A DNA stretch of 22,977 nucleotides from Cochliopodium minus (taxonomy: Eukaryota > Discosea > Himatismenida > Cochliopodiidae), in assembly GCA_024220525.1 (NCBI GenBank), contig JAMYWO010000140.1, forward strand, positions 43,826-66,802, given 5' to 3'. This document shows, piece after piece, positions 1,188 through 18,933 of the stretch. Both the position numbers and the translations under genes were made by a program. How positions within the stretch are numbered: position 1 is the stretch's first letter; every line of letters begins with the position of its first letter. The notes below the pieces were generated by a model that was not told the origin of the DNA, did no database searches, and was given only the letters and a program-made list of their open reading frames with translations.

Positions 1188-4100
1188 TTAATTGGAAAAA
1201 GTCAAATGAAGAGTTGTTTGGATTATTTTTTGAAGAAGATATTTTGGAATTTTGTGAGTGAAAAGAGGTTTTATCTTGATTCGGAAGCAGATCAAGATTG
1301 TTTCAATCAATTTTTTGATTTCAACAGAAAAGAAACAAATATTTTCCATCTTCCACAATTCCCCATTCTCCAACTCATCGAAATATGAACTCATCACTTC
1401 ACACACATCTTCTTTGATCATTTTTTGCTTACAAGTAAGTCCTTTATTATTTTCAACATTGATGTCTGCTTTGTGAGAAATGAAAAGTGTGAAAATTTCT
1501 CTTATCTCTTGGTTATATTTCACATGTTCTTGCATCAAATGAAAAGGAGTGTTTCCCTTTTTATTGCGAATATTCAAATCACATTTTTGAACTTCAATCA
1601 AGTATTTCAGAACTTTTGTTGTTTCGAATTGATTTCCTCCAAGAATAGCGCAAAACAAAGCATTCTCACCTTTCTTGTTGGTCAAATTGACACTGCAACC
1701 TTGTTCTTCAACAAGAAACCTTATAATTTCAACATCTTCATAATATTTACACATTAAAAGGAAAGGAGTGTCTCCATTTTCATCTTTCAAATTAAAGTCC
1801 ATTTTTTTCTCGGCAAGATAAAAGATAATTTCTTTTTCAACAGAAATGTTCTTGGAGAGACTGTGATGAAGATACATATCAATGGAATCCTCATTCAACT
1901 TTTGAAAATCAATATTGCAATCTTCTACCAAATATTTAATCACTTCCAAATTAACACTTTCGTTTCGATACAAATATTTGCTCAAAGGGGTTTCAAAATC
2001 TTCACTGATAAGGTCGATAAAATTCACCTCTAATTCCCGGAAATACTTCAACCATTCAACATCAATATTCAAATTGGTTTCCATCAAAAAATGGAAAATA
2101 GAGTTGTTTTGAAAATCTCTTTCTTTGTGAAAGTTTTTGCTTTCAATCAAATACTTTACCACTTCAAATTCAACCTTTTCGTTCAAAAATAAACTCATAT
2201 AAGGGGATTTCCCCTCATCGTCCAAATCACTCGAAAAAATGTCTTCGATGGATTCTAAATACATTATGATTTCAAGATCAATATCTCCGTTCATCATAAA
2301 AGAATGGAAACAAGTTTCACCCAACATGTTTTTTATTTTCAAATCGATTTTGCTTTCAACAAAATATTTTAAAACGGGGATGTCGAGTTTGTAATTTGAA
2401 AAAATGTGATGAATGACGGCATTTCTCTCATAATGCTTCTTGTTTGAAATCTGATGAAAATCGCAATTATTATTTTCAACCAAACATTTCAAAAAATCGA
2501 GATTAAACTTGTTTGGGATGCAACAATTGTAAAAATTATTTGTCAAAACGTTCATGTCAAACTGTCTTTGAGAGATGACATAACTAATTATTTCCATGTC
2601 AGCATTTTCGTTCGAGATCAAATGGTAAATGGGAGATCTTCTATTTTCGCTGTCTTTATTAAAGTCATATTCGACATTTTCGATGATATATTTCACAATA
2701 TCCAAGTTGATATTTGAGTTTGAGAAGAGAGTGTGAATCGGAGTTCTATCGTGAACCCCCTTGACTTTCACGTCTGCCTTTTTCTCTTCCACTACAAAAC
2801 TAATTGTTTCAAGATCAACACTCTTGTTTTGAAAAATGAGATCAACGTAAGGGGTTTGATTTTTAACAAAATTGACATTCAAGTTTGTTTTGCTGATGAA
2901 ATGTCTCAATGATTCACAATCTAATCTCGTCAAAGTATGATACATTTCAGCTTTATTCAACTTTTGCAAATCAAAATCAAACTGGAGTTCATCAAACAAA
3001 TACTTTGTCAACTCGGAGTCCATTATTTTTCGATTGTTCAAAAGGAGATAAACAGGATTCAATTCTTCTCTGTTTTCAACCGAAAGATCCCGTCCACTCC
3101 CAATGAAATGCTTGATAACATGCAGATCTTTGTTGAACAAACACAAATGATGAAGAGGAGTGTTTCCAACTTTATTTTGAGTGTTCCAATCAAACTTTTT
3201 TAGATCTAGCACTAGATCTAGTGTATCAATGTCAACGTGTCTGTTTTGGCACAAACAATTGAAAAAATTGTTTTTTTCGTCATCTTCAAAGTTTTCAATA
3301 TCAATAACTTTTTCACCAACAAAATAATTAACAACACTTTTGATTTCTTTGTGAGATTTAACAATATGAGCAATCATTTCGCTAAATTTTGTTTCGTTTT
3401 CTTTCCCACCAAACAACTTTCTTTCTTCAATCAAAAATTTCACAAAATCAAGATCAACGCTTTTGTTTTGAAAGATATACTGGAACATTGATCCGAGATA
3501 TTCATTTTTGCTATCAAAATCAATCAAATCCTCTTCAATGAATTGCTTAATAATTTCAAGGTTTTTGTTTCTGCAAAGCATATGACTTGCAGTTTCTCCG
3601 TTAAGATTGGTTGATTTGGTCTCACTTTTTTTCAATTCCCAGATGTACTTGACGATCTGCAGGTTCTCATTTTCTGAGCAAGCATAATGTAGAAGTGTGA
3701 AATTTTCCCGTCTGTCTTTTTCATATTTGTTCTCTGTTCGAACTTTGAGCTCTTCAACCAAATACTTGATCACTTCCATTCCGTTGATGTTTGTACAGGC
3801 AAATTGCAAAATGATGTAACTTTCGTTGACAGATCTTTTCATCAAACTTTTGTTTTTTTCTATCAAATGTTTTATTGTTTTCAAATCAGAAATGTATTTG
3901 AATGCTAGAAGAAATGGTGATATTCCTCTGTTATTTCTTGCTTTTATTCTTATTCCTTTCAAATCAATCAAATATTTTATTGTTTCTGTATCTTTTATCT
4001 TCTTAAAAGCAAGATGAAGAGGAGTATTTCCTTTGTTGTTTTTGAGGTTTATATCGCATTTCATTTCGATCAGTTGTTTTATTCTTTCTATTACGACATC

Positions 4101-4249
4101 CTCATTTCTTGAAAATAAATTATGAAGTGGATTTCTATATTTTTTATCTTTTCATTTTATTTTGAAGGAGAAATAATTTTTGGTAATGTCATATATTGGA
4201 AATAAAGAAAAATATACTTGTTATATTGGAAGTATATTATTTCTTTCAT
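1188..4249 (-). CDS. Giant ankyrin-repeat protein
   Basis: One uninterrupted reading frame (1188-4134) is built almost wholly of degenerate ankyrin repeats of about 34-39 residues. I count roughly 25. The best consensus copies carry NKKGNTPFHL or NNKGNTPLHLAF, followed by an IKYLIE-type second helix. Many internal copies lose the TPLH turn but keep an N-x-(S/N)-V-D-L-E-x-(I/V)-KYLVE core. No other domain is visible. The first internal Met is at 4064, but the repeat frame stays open about 70 bp further upstream. I therefore propose a short first exon at 4218-4249 (ATG, 32 nt) and an 83-nt intron at 4135-4217 (GTATAT..TATAG). Its phase matches and it completes the first repeat, giving about 992 residues. 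The 3' end (1188) is certain; the start is tentative. Ankyrin repeats bind proteins; the partner cannot be inferred. It is divergent from the small globin-like gene. Confidence 0.85.
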
Positions 4250-15164: not shown

Positions 15165-16392
15165 TTATTTGTTGCTTGGATCTTTGGTAGTACGAAGATA
15201 TGGCTTGATGATTTTGAAATCACCAAACAATTCCTTTGCCTTTTCATTGTTGATGCTTGGTGCAATGATGACCTTTTGAAAAAAATGTTAAATTAATTGA
15301 ATGAATTTGAATAAAAATAGAGGGGTTACATCATCTCCTTTCTTCCAGTTACTTGGGGTGGTCAATCCCTTACCAGTAGTCAATTGCAAGGAATCCAATA
15401 CTCTGACGATTTCATCAAAGTTACGTCCACAAGATGCAGGGTACTATAAGTGATAAAAGATAGTATTAATATCAAAAAAAATCAAGAAAAAAAAAAAGAG
15501 ATTACAACTGATAGATTTTATGGACAAAGATTTGTTAGTTTTTAAAAAAATTATATTGAAAAGAAGGGCTTTATTTACTGAGGATGAGACGAATCTTTTT
15601 CAATGGATCAATGATGAAGACACAACGTACAGTCAATGGGATTGTTGGTTGTTCATTGGTGTCATCGAGCTCTCCGATCATACCATAGAGCTTGGAGATT
15701 TCTCTTTTTGGATCAGCGATGATAGGATAATTGACGGTGGTTGAATTCACTTCTTCAATATCTTTTTGCCTTTATTAATGAAAGTATGTTCAAGATATAG
15801 TTAAATGGAATGAATTTAAGAAATTTTACCATCTAGAAGGAAAAGGGTTTTGAAAATTCAAAAAAAATTTTTTTTTATTTTTTACTCGTGATGGGATTGG
15901 ACATCATCCACGGATAATCCAATGACCTTTGTATTTCTGCTTTCCCATTCTTTATGATATTTTGCAAGTGATCCTAATTCGGTTCTATTTCATTTTTATA
16001 AAGAAAAAAGTTAATTTATAAACATCATAATGCTTGTGAACAAAAATAATTTACGTGCATACTGGTGTATTATCTGCAAAAGATACATGAAATGATAATA
16101 TGGATCAAAATAAATAATAAATCTCAAAAGAAAATTCTTTACCAGCTAATTATTTAATTATCGAAATGTTGATTAGGGATCCAAAAATATTAACAAGAAA
16201 AAATTTTGCCTGGATGAGATACCAAAATTCCCCATGAAGTTCCAAGCCTGTTATTTATTAAATAAATGGAACTTATTCCAAAACCAGAGCATATTTTCTG
16301 AAATTATTTTACCATTCATGGAAATCAAGTTTTCCCTTGGTAGTTTCTGCAACAAAGTTTGGAGCAACATCACCTAATCTAAGAGTAGTCAT
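15165..16392 (-). CDS. 1-Cys (Prx6-type) peroxiredoxin with 2- and 3-nt microexons
   Basis: Ten exons: 16313-16392, 16210-16247, 16143-16145, 16055-16073, 15886-15984, 15830-15832, 15579-15769, 15506-15507, 15330-15443, 15165-15272. They total 657 nt and give 218 residues, against about 220 for plant and animal Prx6. Prx6 landmarks: SWGILVSHPAD, the peroxidatic site TPVCTTELG (Cys46), SVDDVQSHHEWQKDI, NYPIIADPKREI, VFIIDP, YPASCGRNFDEI, PSNWKKGDDVII and a C-terminal KPYLR. Such enzymes reduce hydroperoxides using one redox Cys; no second resolving Cys in the 2-Cys position is evident. Three exons are only 3, 3 and 2 nt. With them every intron is 53-71 nt; without them the frame breaks once and two conserved residues vanish. 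Intron 2 starts with GC instead of GT. The family's Phe/Tyr before TPVC is Asn here. Divergent from the kinase gene. Confidence 0.9.
15506..15507 (-). other. 2-nt microexon (TT) of the peroxiredoxin gene
   Basis: TT lies between a CTATCAG acceptor and a GTAATC donor. The upstream exon (ending 15579) leaves in phase 1 and the downstream exon (from 15443) enters in phase 0, so exactly two extra bases (or 2 mod 3) are needed. TT makes an Ile codon and gives KIRLILIYPASCGRN, matching the family's Ile/Leu before YPA. I found no other usable unit in the 135-nt gap. Flanking introns are 71 and 62 nt. Confidence 0.78.
15830..15832 (-). other. 3-nt microexon (ATG) of the peroxiredoxin gene
   Basis: ATG lies between a strong CCTTCTAG acceptor and a GTAAAA donor. 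Its A completes a Glu codon and its TG, with the next exon's G, makes Trp. The result is SHHEWQKDI, matching the conserved S-H-x-x-W-x-K-D-I of the family. Skipping it keeps the frame and gives SHHEQKDI without the Trp. Flanking introns are 53 and 60 nt. Confidence 0.78.
16055..16073 (-). other. 19-nt exon carrying the peroxidatic cysteine
   Basis: The 19 nt between TTTTGCAG and GTAAAT encode D-N-T-P-V-C plus two bases of Thr. They hold the catalytic Cys46 of the peroxiredoxin, so this exon must be included for activity. It enters in phase 1, leaves in phase 2, and is flanked by introns of 69 and 70 nt. Confidence 0.88.
16143..16145 (-). other. 3-nt microexon (CTG) of the peroxiredoxin gene
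   Basis: CTG sits between an ATTAG acceptor and a GTAAAG donor. With it the junction reads P-A-D before the active site (SHPAD..TPVC), the usual family spacing. Without it Ala is missing (SHPD), though the frame is kept. It splits a 136-nt gap into introns of 64 and 69 nt. Confidence 0.65.
16146..16209 (-). other. Probable GC-AG intron of the peroxiredoxin gene
   Basis: After the SHP codons the exon must end at CAG, and the intron begins GCAAAA. No GT donor nearby keeps the SHPAD motif, and reading on hits a stop after six codons. CAG|GC matches the consensus of minor-frequency GC-AG introns handled by the major spliceosome. The 64-nt length is normal for this gene. Confidence 0.75.
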
Positions 16393-16740: not shown

Positions 16741-18933
16741 ATGAAAAATCCCTCAACAGATTTTAGTTTTGATAATTCCTTGGATAATTTCAACTCATCA
16801 TATAACACAAATTCATATGATAGTGAATACTCAGATAGTCTGGGATATTCGAAATCATTCATACCTATCAAAACAAAATGTAAGATATATAAATTTAAAC
16901 CAAACCGTAATTAATAAATTGATAAATTACATAGCTACAACCAACTTGAAGGAATCCCTCGAAATGAATAACAAAAAAAGATATTTCGAATTGTTAGTAT
17001 GTGAAAACTTATGGATGAGATCAAAAAGAGATATGAAGACATTCAGAGAAGAATTGTTGAAAATCAAAAATCACAATCTTTTGCCTGAATTTCCAGATGA
17101 AATATTGGAATATAGTGATAAAGATCTCAAAGGTGAGATTTGCAGATTACATATACGAAATAAAATATTTTATGCATATTAACTTTTTTCAAAAGAATAT
17201 ATCAAGAAATATTTCATCATTGGATCACCATCTCCCATCATCAATAAACAAGATGAACAACATTACCAGATAGAGGATGATAATTCTCTGGATGATCTGT
17301 TCGAGAGAAATGATCAAAATAAGCAAATAACCACTCTCTACAAAGAAAGATTGAATTTTGATATTCTGCCATTTAAAGTATCCTTCCCAAGGTATATTAA
17401 AAAAAAACTCAATTTGATTGAAATCAAAAACAAAATAATGCCAATATATTTTGGTTTATTTAAAGTTATATTCAGCAAAATTTTAATTTTAATTTATAAA
17501 AAAATATAATAATTTTCCTCTCATATAAACCTAAATTCAACATAAAGCAATTTTTATTCGATTTGATTATTTTAATTTTTACTCCCTCATTCTCCTTGTC
17601 ACTAGATATCAGCTCGATTTCGTAGAATTATGCAAAATTGGCAGCGGTGGATTCGCAAATGTGTATAAAGCAAAACATATATTAGACGAAAGGTGATTAA
17701 TTTTATAAAATAAATTTTTTTTTGTTCATTTATTCCCCCTTTCATTGATTCACTTAACTTAATTTCTCCGAATTATAATTTATCATTCCATTTTATAATA
17801 ATAAATAATTAATCCTTCATTCATTCTTTCGGGAACCGATACAGATTGTATGCAATCAAAAAAATATTTTTCTTGGAAAAGTTTTTGCCCTCCCTCAACA
17901 AGGTTGTGAGAGAAGTGAAAACTCTGGCAAAGTTAAATCACAAAAGAATTGTAAATCTTTTTTTTTTTCTCATAAATCAATCTCACCTTAATATTTTTTT
18001 TTCTTTTCTCAAAATTTTTTTTTTTTTTTCTAGGTAAGATATTATAATGCGTGGATCGAAAAGATCGAAGATGTCAACCAGTTTCCCGAAGAAAATGTCA
18101 TTGTAGAAGAAAATTCTGAAAATTTGGAAAGTGACACAAGTGGATCAATGTTTGGTAATTAACATTTGATTTCAAGGCATCTTATTAATCTTCAATTAAG
18201 ATTAAATTTCTTAATTTTTTATTTTTTATTTTTTTATTTTTTTATTTTATTTTTATTTTATTTCATATTTGTTTATGTTTTTTATTTTTTATTTTTTATT
18301 TTTTATTTTTTATTTTTTATTTCTTATTTTTTATTTTTTATTTTTTATTTTTTATTTTTTATTTTTTTATTTTTTATTCTTTGTGATATTATTTTTTATT
18401 TTTTCTTATTTTCTTTTAAATTTTTTTTAATTTTAAAATTCATTGATTCTGGAATAGATACACCAAAAGCAATCATGAAGTACAACGGGAAGAACCAAAG
18501 AAACTTTAAAAATTCCAGGTCCGACACCCAAAAAACAAAGTATCTCTACGTCTTGTACATCCAGATGGAGATGTGCGACAACTCCCTGAGAAATTGGCTC
18601 GACGAGAGAAAGGAGATCAACGAAGCTAAGAACTTGGACCTCATGAATCAATTGTTGGCTGCTGTGGATCACATCCATGAAAACAATATCATGCACAGAG
18701 ATTTGAAGGTGAAACAAGTTTTTTGTTTATTTTTTTGTTTTTATTTTGTTTTTTGTTTTGTTTTTTTTTGTTTTTAGTTTGTTTTTGTTGTTTTTGTTTT
18801 TTTTTTTTTGTTTTTATTTTATTTTATTTTTTTTTGTTTTTGTTTTTGTTTTATTTTGTTTTATTTTATTTTGTTTTGTTTTTGTTTTTGTTTATTTTGT
18901 TTTGTTTTTTGTTTTGTTTTTTATTTTTTTTTG

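Follow-up and report, generated by a model that had tools for sequence, protein, structure and literature searches.

Exons of two and three nucleotides predicted in a peroxiredoxin gene of Cochliopodium minus, with similar tiny exons in its Ras-type GTPase family

A peroxiredoxin gene of the protist Cochliopodium minus carries, between pairs of short introns, three exons of only 2 or 3 nt (TT, CTG, and ATG) whose nucleotides are required to encode a conserved protein, and a like pattern is present in Ras paralogues of the same genome. We consider it very probable that this is an intact gene with nine short spliceosomal introns, that TT, CTG, and ATG are all needed in its mRNA, and that the introns are removed one by one under intron definition. 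The window (the whole 22,977-nt stretch of DNA analysed, in which the coordinates below are given) is part of a 44.65-Mb genome of 598 contigs. It is AT-rich, with a G+C content of 23-31% when measured in 2-kb windows, and its introns identify it as eukaryotic.

The gene (16392-15165, minus strand) is complete, with ten exons and a 218-residue product that has an ATG start and a TAA stop (Table 1). All introns are GT-AG, save intron 2, which is GC-AG. The product matches two Pfam families, AhpC-TSA (PF00578) at 101.8 bits for a cut-off of 26, and 1-cysPrx_C (PF10417) at 27.4 bits for a cut-off of 21.1. Aligned with the solved proteins 5ykj, 6p0w, 7kuu, and 1prx, it has zero gaps at the three tiny-exon places. 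The initial annotation had named the Prx6 family, and this gap-free fit bears it out. We take PVCTTEL to be the active-site motif of Prx6-type 1-Cys peroxiredoxins; the corresponding motif in the assembled protein is HPADNTPVCTTELG, and its columns are invariant in 21 sequences, except for A40 and N42. Judged by its sequence, the product is a 1-Cys (Prx6-type) peroxiredoxin, with peroxidase activity as its predicted function. Among the bacterial and archaeal models of NCBIfam, none of the 10 that matched the product did so at its own curated cut-off. A search of the genome with PF00578 returned four matches; two of them are the gene under study, and the other two are the loci L002 and L004. 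Just downstream on the same strand there is a 204-codon open frame (14994-14380, minus strand) that has no Pfam match.

Table 1. Exons and introns of the peroxiredoxin gene; shuffles are trials in which the shuffled gap yielded an internal exon, and a slash marks a splice junction within a codon.
Feature	Position	Strand	Description
exon 1	16313..16392	-	80 nt, ATG start
intron 1		-	65 nt, GT-AG
exon 2	16210..16247	-	38 nt
intron 2	16146..16209	-	64 nt, GC-AG (GCAAAA...TTAG)
exon 3	16143..16145	-	3 nt, CTG; gives Ala40 of HPADNTPVC (codons G/CT, G/AT); 0/600 shuffles
intron 3	16074..16142	-	69 nt, GT-AG
exon 4	16055..16073	-	19 nt; holds PVC cysteine
intron 4		-	70 nt, GT-AG
exon 5	15886..15984	-	99 nt
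intron 5	15833..15885	-	53 nt, GT-AG
exon 6	15830..15832	-	3 nt, ATG; finishes Glu80 (GA/A), opens Trp81 (TG/G); 0/600 shuffles
intron 6	15770..15829	-	60 nt, GT-AG
exon 7	15579..15769	-	191 nt
intron 7	15508..15578	-	71 nt, GTAAAT...CAG
exon 8	15506..15507	-	2 nt, TT; finishes Ile145 (A/TT); 8/600 shuffles
intron 8	15444..15505	-	62 nt, GTAATC...TAG
exon 9	15330..15443	-	114 nt
intron 9		-	57 nt, GT-AG
exon 10	15165..15272	-	108 nt, TAA stop

The exon structure comes from spliced protein-to-DNA alignment, using a model in which introns can occur in any phase, exons can have any length, and both gaps and non-canonical splice sites are allowed at a price. All 120 of the homologues listed (the best 120 of 8000 hits) produce an identical internal structure, TT included. 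The closest of these 120, P0001, is 82% identical to the product, and its residues where the tiny exons fall are A, W, and V; it lies on a 676-nt contig, from which we judge it to be probably a spliced sequence. Among the 120 listed hits, the best of 8000, there is no Prx protein or transcript of the organism itself, and none has more than 82% identity. As a control, the three composite gaps were dinucleotide-shuffled and realigned to P0001 in 600 trials. The counts of internal exons for the individual gaps are given in Table 1; in 0/600 trials did all three gaps yield one, and the best shuffle scored 799 versus 831 for the real sequence. On these data TT, CTG, and ATG would all be classed as microexons, that is, exons of ≤15 nt lying between an acceptor and a donor, and with nucleotides needed for a conserved product.

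The method was checked on a TMEM144-family gene in the same window (9473-7052, minus strand). It finds 14 exons there, and they are the same when using a 41%-identical homologue and when using P0241, a protein from EukProt that carries a Trinity name and agrees with the TMEM144 product at 331 of 332 residues. P0241 backs exons of 11 nt (8413-8403), 15 nt (7373-7359), and 18 nt (9206-9189). As Trinity is an assembler of RNA reads, the name points to splicing of all three of these short exons in this organism or one very closely related to it, and there seems to be a transcriptome of this species or one almost identical to it.

The initial annotation had proposed the 2-nt exon, and its coordinates, lengths, splice sites, and phases were right when checked in the sequence. 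Exon 7 ends in phase 1 with ...CTCATCCTCA at 15579 (minus strand), exon 9 begins in phase 0 with TACCCTGCA... at 15443, and joining the two directly breaks the frame. Inserting TT, which is found in the context CAG/TT/GTAATC, restores the frame and results in KKIRLILIYPASCGRNFDE, with Ile145 falling within LILIYPASCGRN. The 2-nt exon, its phases, and the restored isoleucine are backed by the sequence, by the 120 listed homologues (best 120 of 8000 hits), and by the shuffle control. That TT is the one usable acceptor-donor pair in the gap holds insofar as the aligner picked nothing else. The expectation of a hydrophobic residue before YPA was right for the 12 of 20 homologues with V or I, but not for the 8 with T or S; in these 20, chosen from the 120 listed, the column is never empty (V 8, I 4, T 7, S 1).

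The CTG and ATG exons are additional to those noticed earlier. Their splice contexts are TAG/CTG/GTAAAG and TAG/ATG/GTAAAA, respectively. Trp81, the residue begun by the ATG exon, does not vary across the 21 aligned sequences, which are the 20 homologues plus the product under study. If either CTG or ATG is skipped, the frame still stays open.

How common are such exons in this genome? In five CCT chaperonin genes (five analysed out of eight, named by eye where they were without a search), there are 26 introns and no exon shorter than 48 nt, and in the TMEM144 gene none of the 13 introns adjoins an exon of ≤10 nt. A genome-wide habit of making tiny exons, in its strong form, is ruled out by these 26 CCT and 13 TMEM144 introns, with no exon of ≤10 nt among them. 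Among the homologues listed for CCT3, identity reaches 69% at most. All 26 CCT introns start with GT; the GC-AG intron 2 of the peroxiredoxin gene (16209-16146, minus strand) is unusual in this genome, and it directly precedes the 3-nt exon CTG.

Ras-type GTPases are a greatly expanded family here, with at least 164 PF00071 matches when 150 of 771 candidates had been scored, and their genes range from uninterrupted to having seven introns (L125). Our sample of 60 Ras loci was chosen mostly for a family match that starts late or breaks early, and intron-rich copies are over-represented in it as a result; 30 further Ras loci are for the most part uninterrupted, and between 11 and 16 of these acted as references. 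Within the 60, two loci are truncated by contig ends (L093 and L102), two are intron-free in the match (L102 and L113), and one (L120) requires a non-canonical intron. The 60 loci have about 180 introns (53 and 125 when run separately, 180 in a joint rerun) at 75 sites, with small shifts in the total according to which reference set is used. We left out of the exon count any short piece abutting the end of a reference, such as those of 7 nt in L107 and 11 nt in L097.

Five of these Ras genes have exons of ≤4 nt: TG in L103, GG in L125, GCGG in L114 and L116, and TGTG in L119. The TG exon of L103 restores the tryptophan of WDTAGQE, and an internal exon turns up in 17 of 80 shuffles, each with a score lower than the real 278. 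The GG exon of L125 restores the first glycine of the P-loop; 3 of 80 shuffles have an internal exon, none of them of 2 nt, and the best shuffle ties with the real score of 331. On the shuffle test alone, the tiny exons of L103 and L125 are weak candidates. The 4-nt exon restores the Ala-Gly of DTAGQE in L114 (2/80 shuffles) and L116 (0/80), and a Cys-Gly at the place of DTAGQE in L119 (0/80). Near the P-loop we also observe nine different nearby intron sites across Ras paralogues (alignment columns 4-10), which suggests repeated gain or sliding.

Comparison of the Ras paralogues gives information on how tiny exons may originate and persist. The genes L114, L116, and L119, 44-52% identical to each other, form one group (FastTree support 0.86) and have the 4-nt exon in common, and at each shared site their introns have no detectable similarity (z between -0.8 and 0.9). 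Since the three paralogues have diverged this far, and the introns at their shared sites are dissimilar, the 4-nt exon is one that has been kept through a long divergence. Of the two sites flanking it, the first is occupied in 15 genes, the second in 5, and both in these three only. A second comparison is given by L125 and L100, which are sisters with 71% identity and support 0.93. The exon lengths are 16, 77, 60, 24, 43, and 233 nt in L100, and 16, 2, 58, 17, 60, 24, 43, and 233 nt in L125, that is, the single 77-nt exon of L100 is the one split into 2, 58, and 17 in L125. As the first L125 intron is common to ten genes and the intron 2 nt later is present in L125 alone, an intron gain in L125 is a simpler reading than losses elsewhere. 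More generally, tiny exons may be born by the gain of an intron 2-4 nt away from an existing one, a change that could well be neutral. Another candidate origin, in which one flanking intron is a duplicate of its partner, is rejected for lack of similarity in the eight pairs compared (z from -2.8 to 1.6, with other Prx pairs reaching 2.7).

Does chance placement of introns suffice? In a random model that pools the Ras sites, a rough guide that ignores kinship, gaps of ≤4 nt are expected 7.9 ± 2.6 times, and 5 are seen. Under the same pooled-site model, and with kinship uncontrolled, there are 6 gaps of ≤10 nt for an expectation of 20.7, and relative to that expectation exons of 5-10 nt look rarer in Ras genes than those of ≤4 nt. 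Nine introns inserted uniformly at random would leave fewer gaps of ≤3 nt than the three seen in the peroxiredoxin gene (P 0.003, or 0.011 conditional on at least one), and a passive origin may therefore be only part of the explanation for that gene. The same concentration of three tiny exons in one gene favours a reading in which they are selected regulatory elements, with TT acting as an off switch whose skipping results in a frameshift, and the frame is indeed broken when TT is skipped. But the skipping of CTG or ATG keeps the frame and leaves no switch at those two places, and the Ras gaps of ≤4 nt show no excess (5 seen versus the expected 7.9 ± 2.6, kinship uncontrolled), so that we regard selection as regulatory elements as improbable.

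It is very improbable that TT lies instead within a single 135-nt intron, and that the absence of 2 nucleotides is due to an assembly error or to the gene being a frameshifted pseudogene. The length of such an intron is normal for this genome. The initial annotation had argued that TT splits the 135 nt into introns of 71 and 62 nt, the usual size in the gene, and this is a weak argument, because the five CCT genes routinely have introns of 58-275 nt, among which one of 135 nt would not stand out. Also in favour, AT-rich runs invite sequencing errors, and no transcript appears among the 120 listed hits, the best of 8000. What weighs against these explanations is that three coincidences are needed, AG/TT/GT, AG/CTG/GT, and AG/ATG/GT, each placed exactly where a residue is missing, and that 0/600 shuffles reproduce them. 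For the CTG and ATG gaps, an indel error cannot create the need for the exon, because the frame is open with or without it. The remainder of the gene is intact, with its conserved residues and a normal stop.

We also listed all single introns of at least 30 nt that begin close to where exon 7 ends and reach into exon 9, with GT-AG, GC-AG, or AT-AC ends. There are 14 that keep an open frame, two of them GT-AG, and all 14 remove the invariant Y146. The GT-AG intron that uses exon 7's own donor (15578-15401, 178 nt) drops YPASCGRNFDEIVRV. With its canonical dinucleotides and open frame, it could conceivably be spliced in a minor isoform; as the gene's main structure, with a protein lacking YPASCGRNFDEIVRV and TT either ignored or an alternative exon, it is equally hard to believe as an assembly error or pseudogene. 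It removes Y146, P147, G151, R152, and F154, residues that are invariant in 21 of 21 aligned sequences, and the aligner picked it with 0 of the 120 listed homologues.

For the intact gene with its three tiny exons, we propose that each of the nine introns, of 53-71 nt, would be recognised as a unit (intron definition) by means of its own complete donor and acceptor. At three places two introns are only 2-3 nt apart, and their removal would leave TT, CTG, and ATG in between. U1 bound at the donor and U2 factors bound at the neighbouring acceptor would occupy overlapping positions, and because of that overlap we infer removal one at a time: the adjoining acceptor and donor would be too close for joint occupancy, and the introns would have to be removed one after the other. 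Removal in either order would produce a valid substrate. A scarcely credible variant is that the introns around TT form a stwintron, in which an inner intron interrupts a splice site of the outer one; adjacent short introns may need ordered removal, as stwintrons do, but both introns flanking TT already have a complete donor and acceptor, neither breaks a splice site of the other, and TT must stay in the mRNA, whereas a fully excised stwintron would not keep it. The introns show no clear branch-site motif. Candidate branch sites are CTAAC, 27 nt before the end of intron 7, and TTAAT, at 22 nt in intron 8; intron 5 has no match to YTRAY. Among 5-mers near intron ends in the Ras genes, enrichment is strongest for the TGAAA and TTGAA type, and CTAAC is outside the top 15.

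Tiny exons are a known kind, and 1-nt exons have been proven in plants. The 1-nt exon of Arabidopsis APC11 was established with cDNA and reporter tests by Guo and Liu (2015, PMC4674806), who favour intron definition with stepwise removal, and the sequential splicing that we propose is plausible by analogy with theirs. They also report that an engineered TT replacing the 1-nt exon, which makes it effectively an exon of 2 nt, is spliced in as TT in Arabidopsis protoplasts, and is mis-spliced in rice (PMC4674806). As described there, the APC11 exon, a constitutive one, is like TT in being far below spliceosome size, in having ordinary flanking splice sites, and in being needed for the frame. It is naturally of 1 nt, from a plant, and within a supposed 422-nt intron (PMC4674806), whereas TT is naturally of 2 nt, from an AT-rich protist, in a 135-nt composite gap of a gene with three tiny exons, and is known from sequence.

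A survey of plants describes small microexons of 1-15 nt, including the 1-nt exon of VPS55, and two clusters of 1-nt exons (PMC8831610). As in our case, it presents tiny exons that are conserved and were missed by annotation, and copies with and without them that show gain and loss; the genomes it describes are those of plants only, as opposed to a protist here (PMC8831610). There may be 2-nt exons among its 2,398 small microexons, and its main text uses "2-nt" 0 times (PMC8831610). No natural 2-nt exon is described in the open-licence PMC literature that we searched, with the length table of the plant survey outside that search. The 3-nt exon reported in Drosophila homothorax is subject to alternative splicing and forms the beginning of a 48-nt exon (PMC7392893); we see no overlapping larger exon here. 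Ratchet points, or zero-nucleotide exons, are similar to TT in that an acceptor is directly followed by a donor and removal is stepwise, but as described they add no nucleotides and occur in long introns (PMC8605326), whereas TT keeps 2 nt between introns of 62 and 71 nt. At all three places in the peroxiredoxin gene there are 2 or 3 needed nucleotides between AG and GT, where a ratchet point has none.

The unusual points here are the clustering of three tiny exons within a single small gene, the occurrence of another five in one gene family, and the existence of paralogues from which a possible way of forming them can be read. Exons of 1-3 nt suggest that neither exon sequence nor exon length is required for recognition when introns are short. 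Recurrent tiny exons, and paralogues that differ by one intron, provide a direct test of how a spliceosome copes with overlapping splice sites. There is also a practical side. Tiny exons are prone to being missed by gene-finding programs and read aligners, with false frameshifts or missing residues as a possible result; at risk in this gene are an invariant tryptophan and a residue beside the catalytic motif. A broader proposal, to which we give somewhat less than even credence, is that the spliceosome of this organism has no effective lower limit on exon length, such that exons of 2-4 nt would be recurrent, born by adjacent intron gain, and constitutive by strict intron definition. If that is true, the genome may hold hundreds of such exons, and the paralogues lacking one of the introns would be natural controls.

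Elsewhere in the window, an uninterrupted open frame of 987 codons (1188-4151, minus strand) is full of ankyrin repeats. On the plus strand, an open frame at 18163-18774 has a partial protein kinase domain, and the long run of low-complexity sequence after it, of TTTTG type, resembles an intron.
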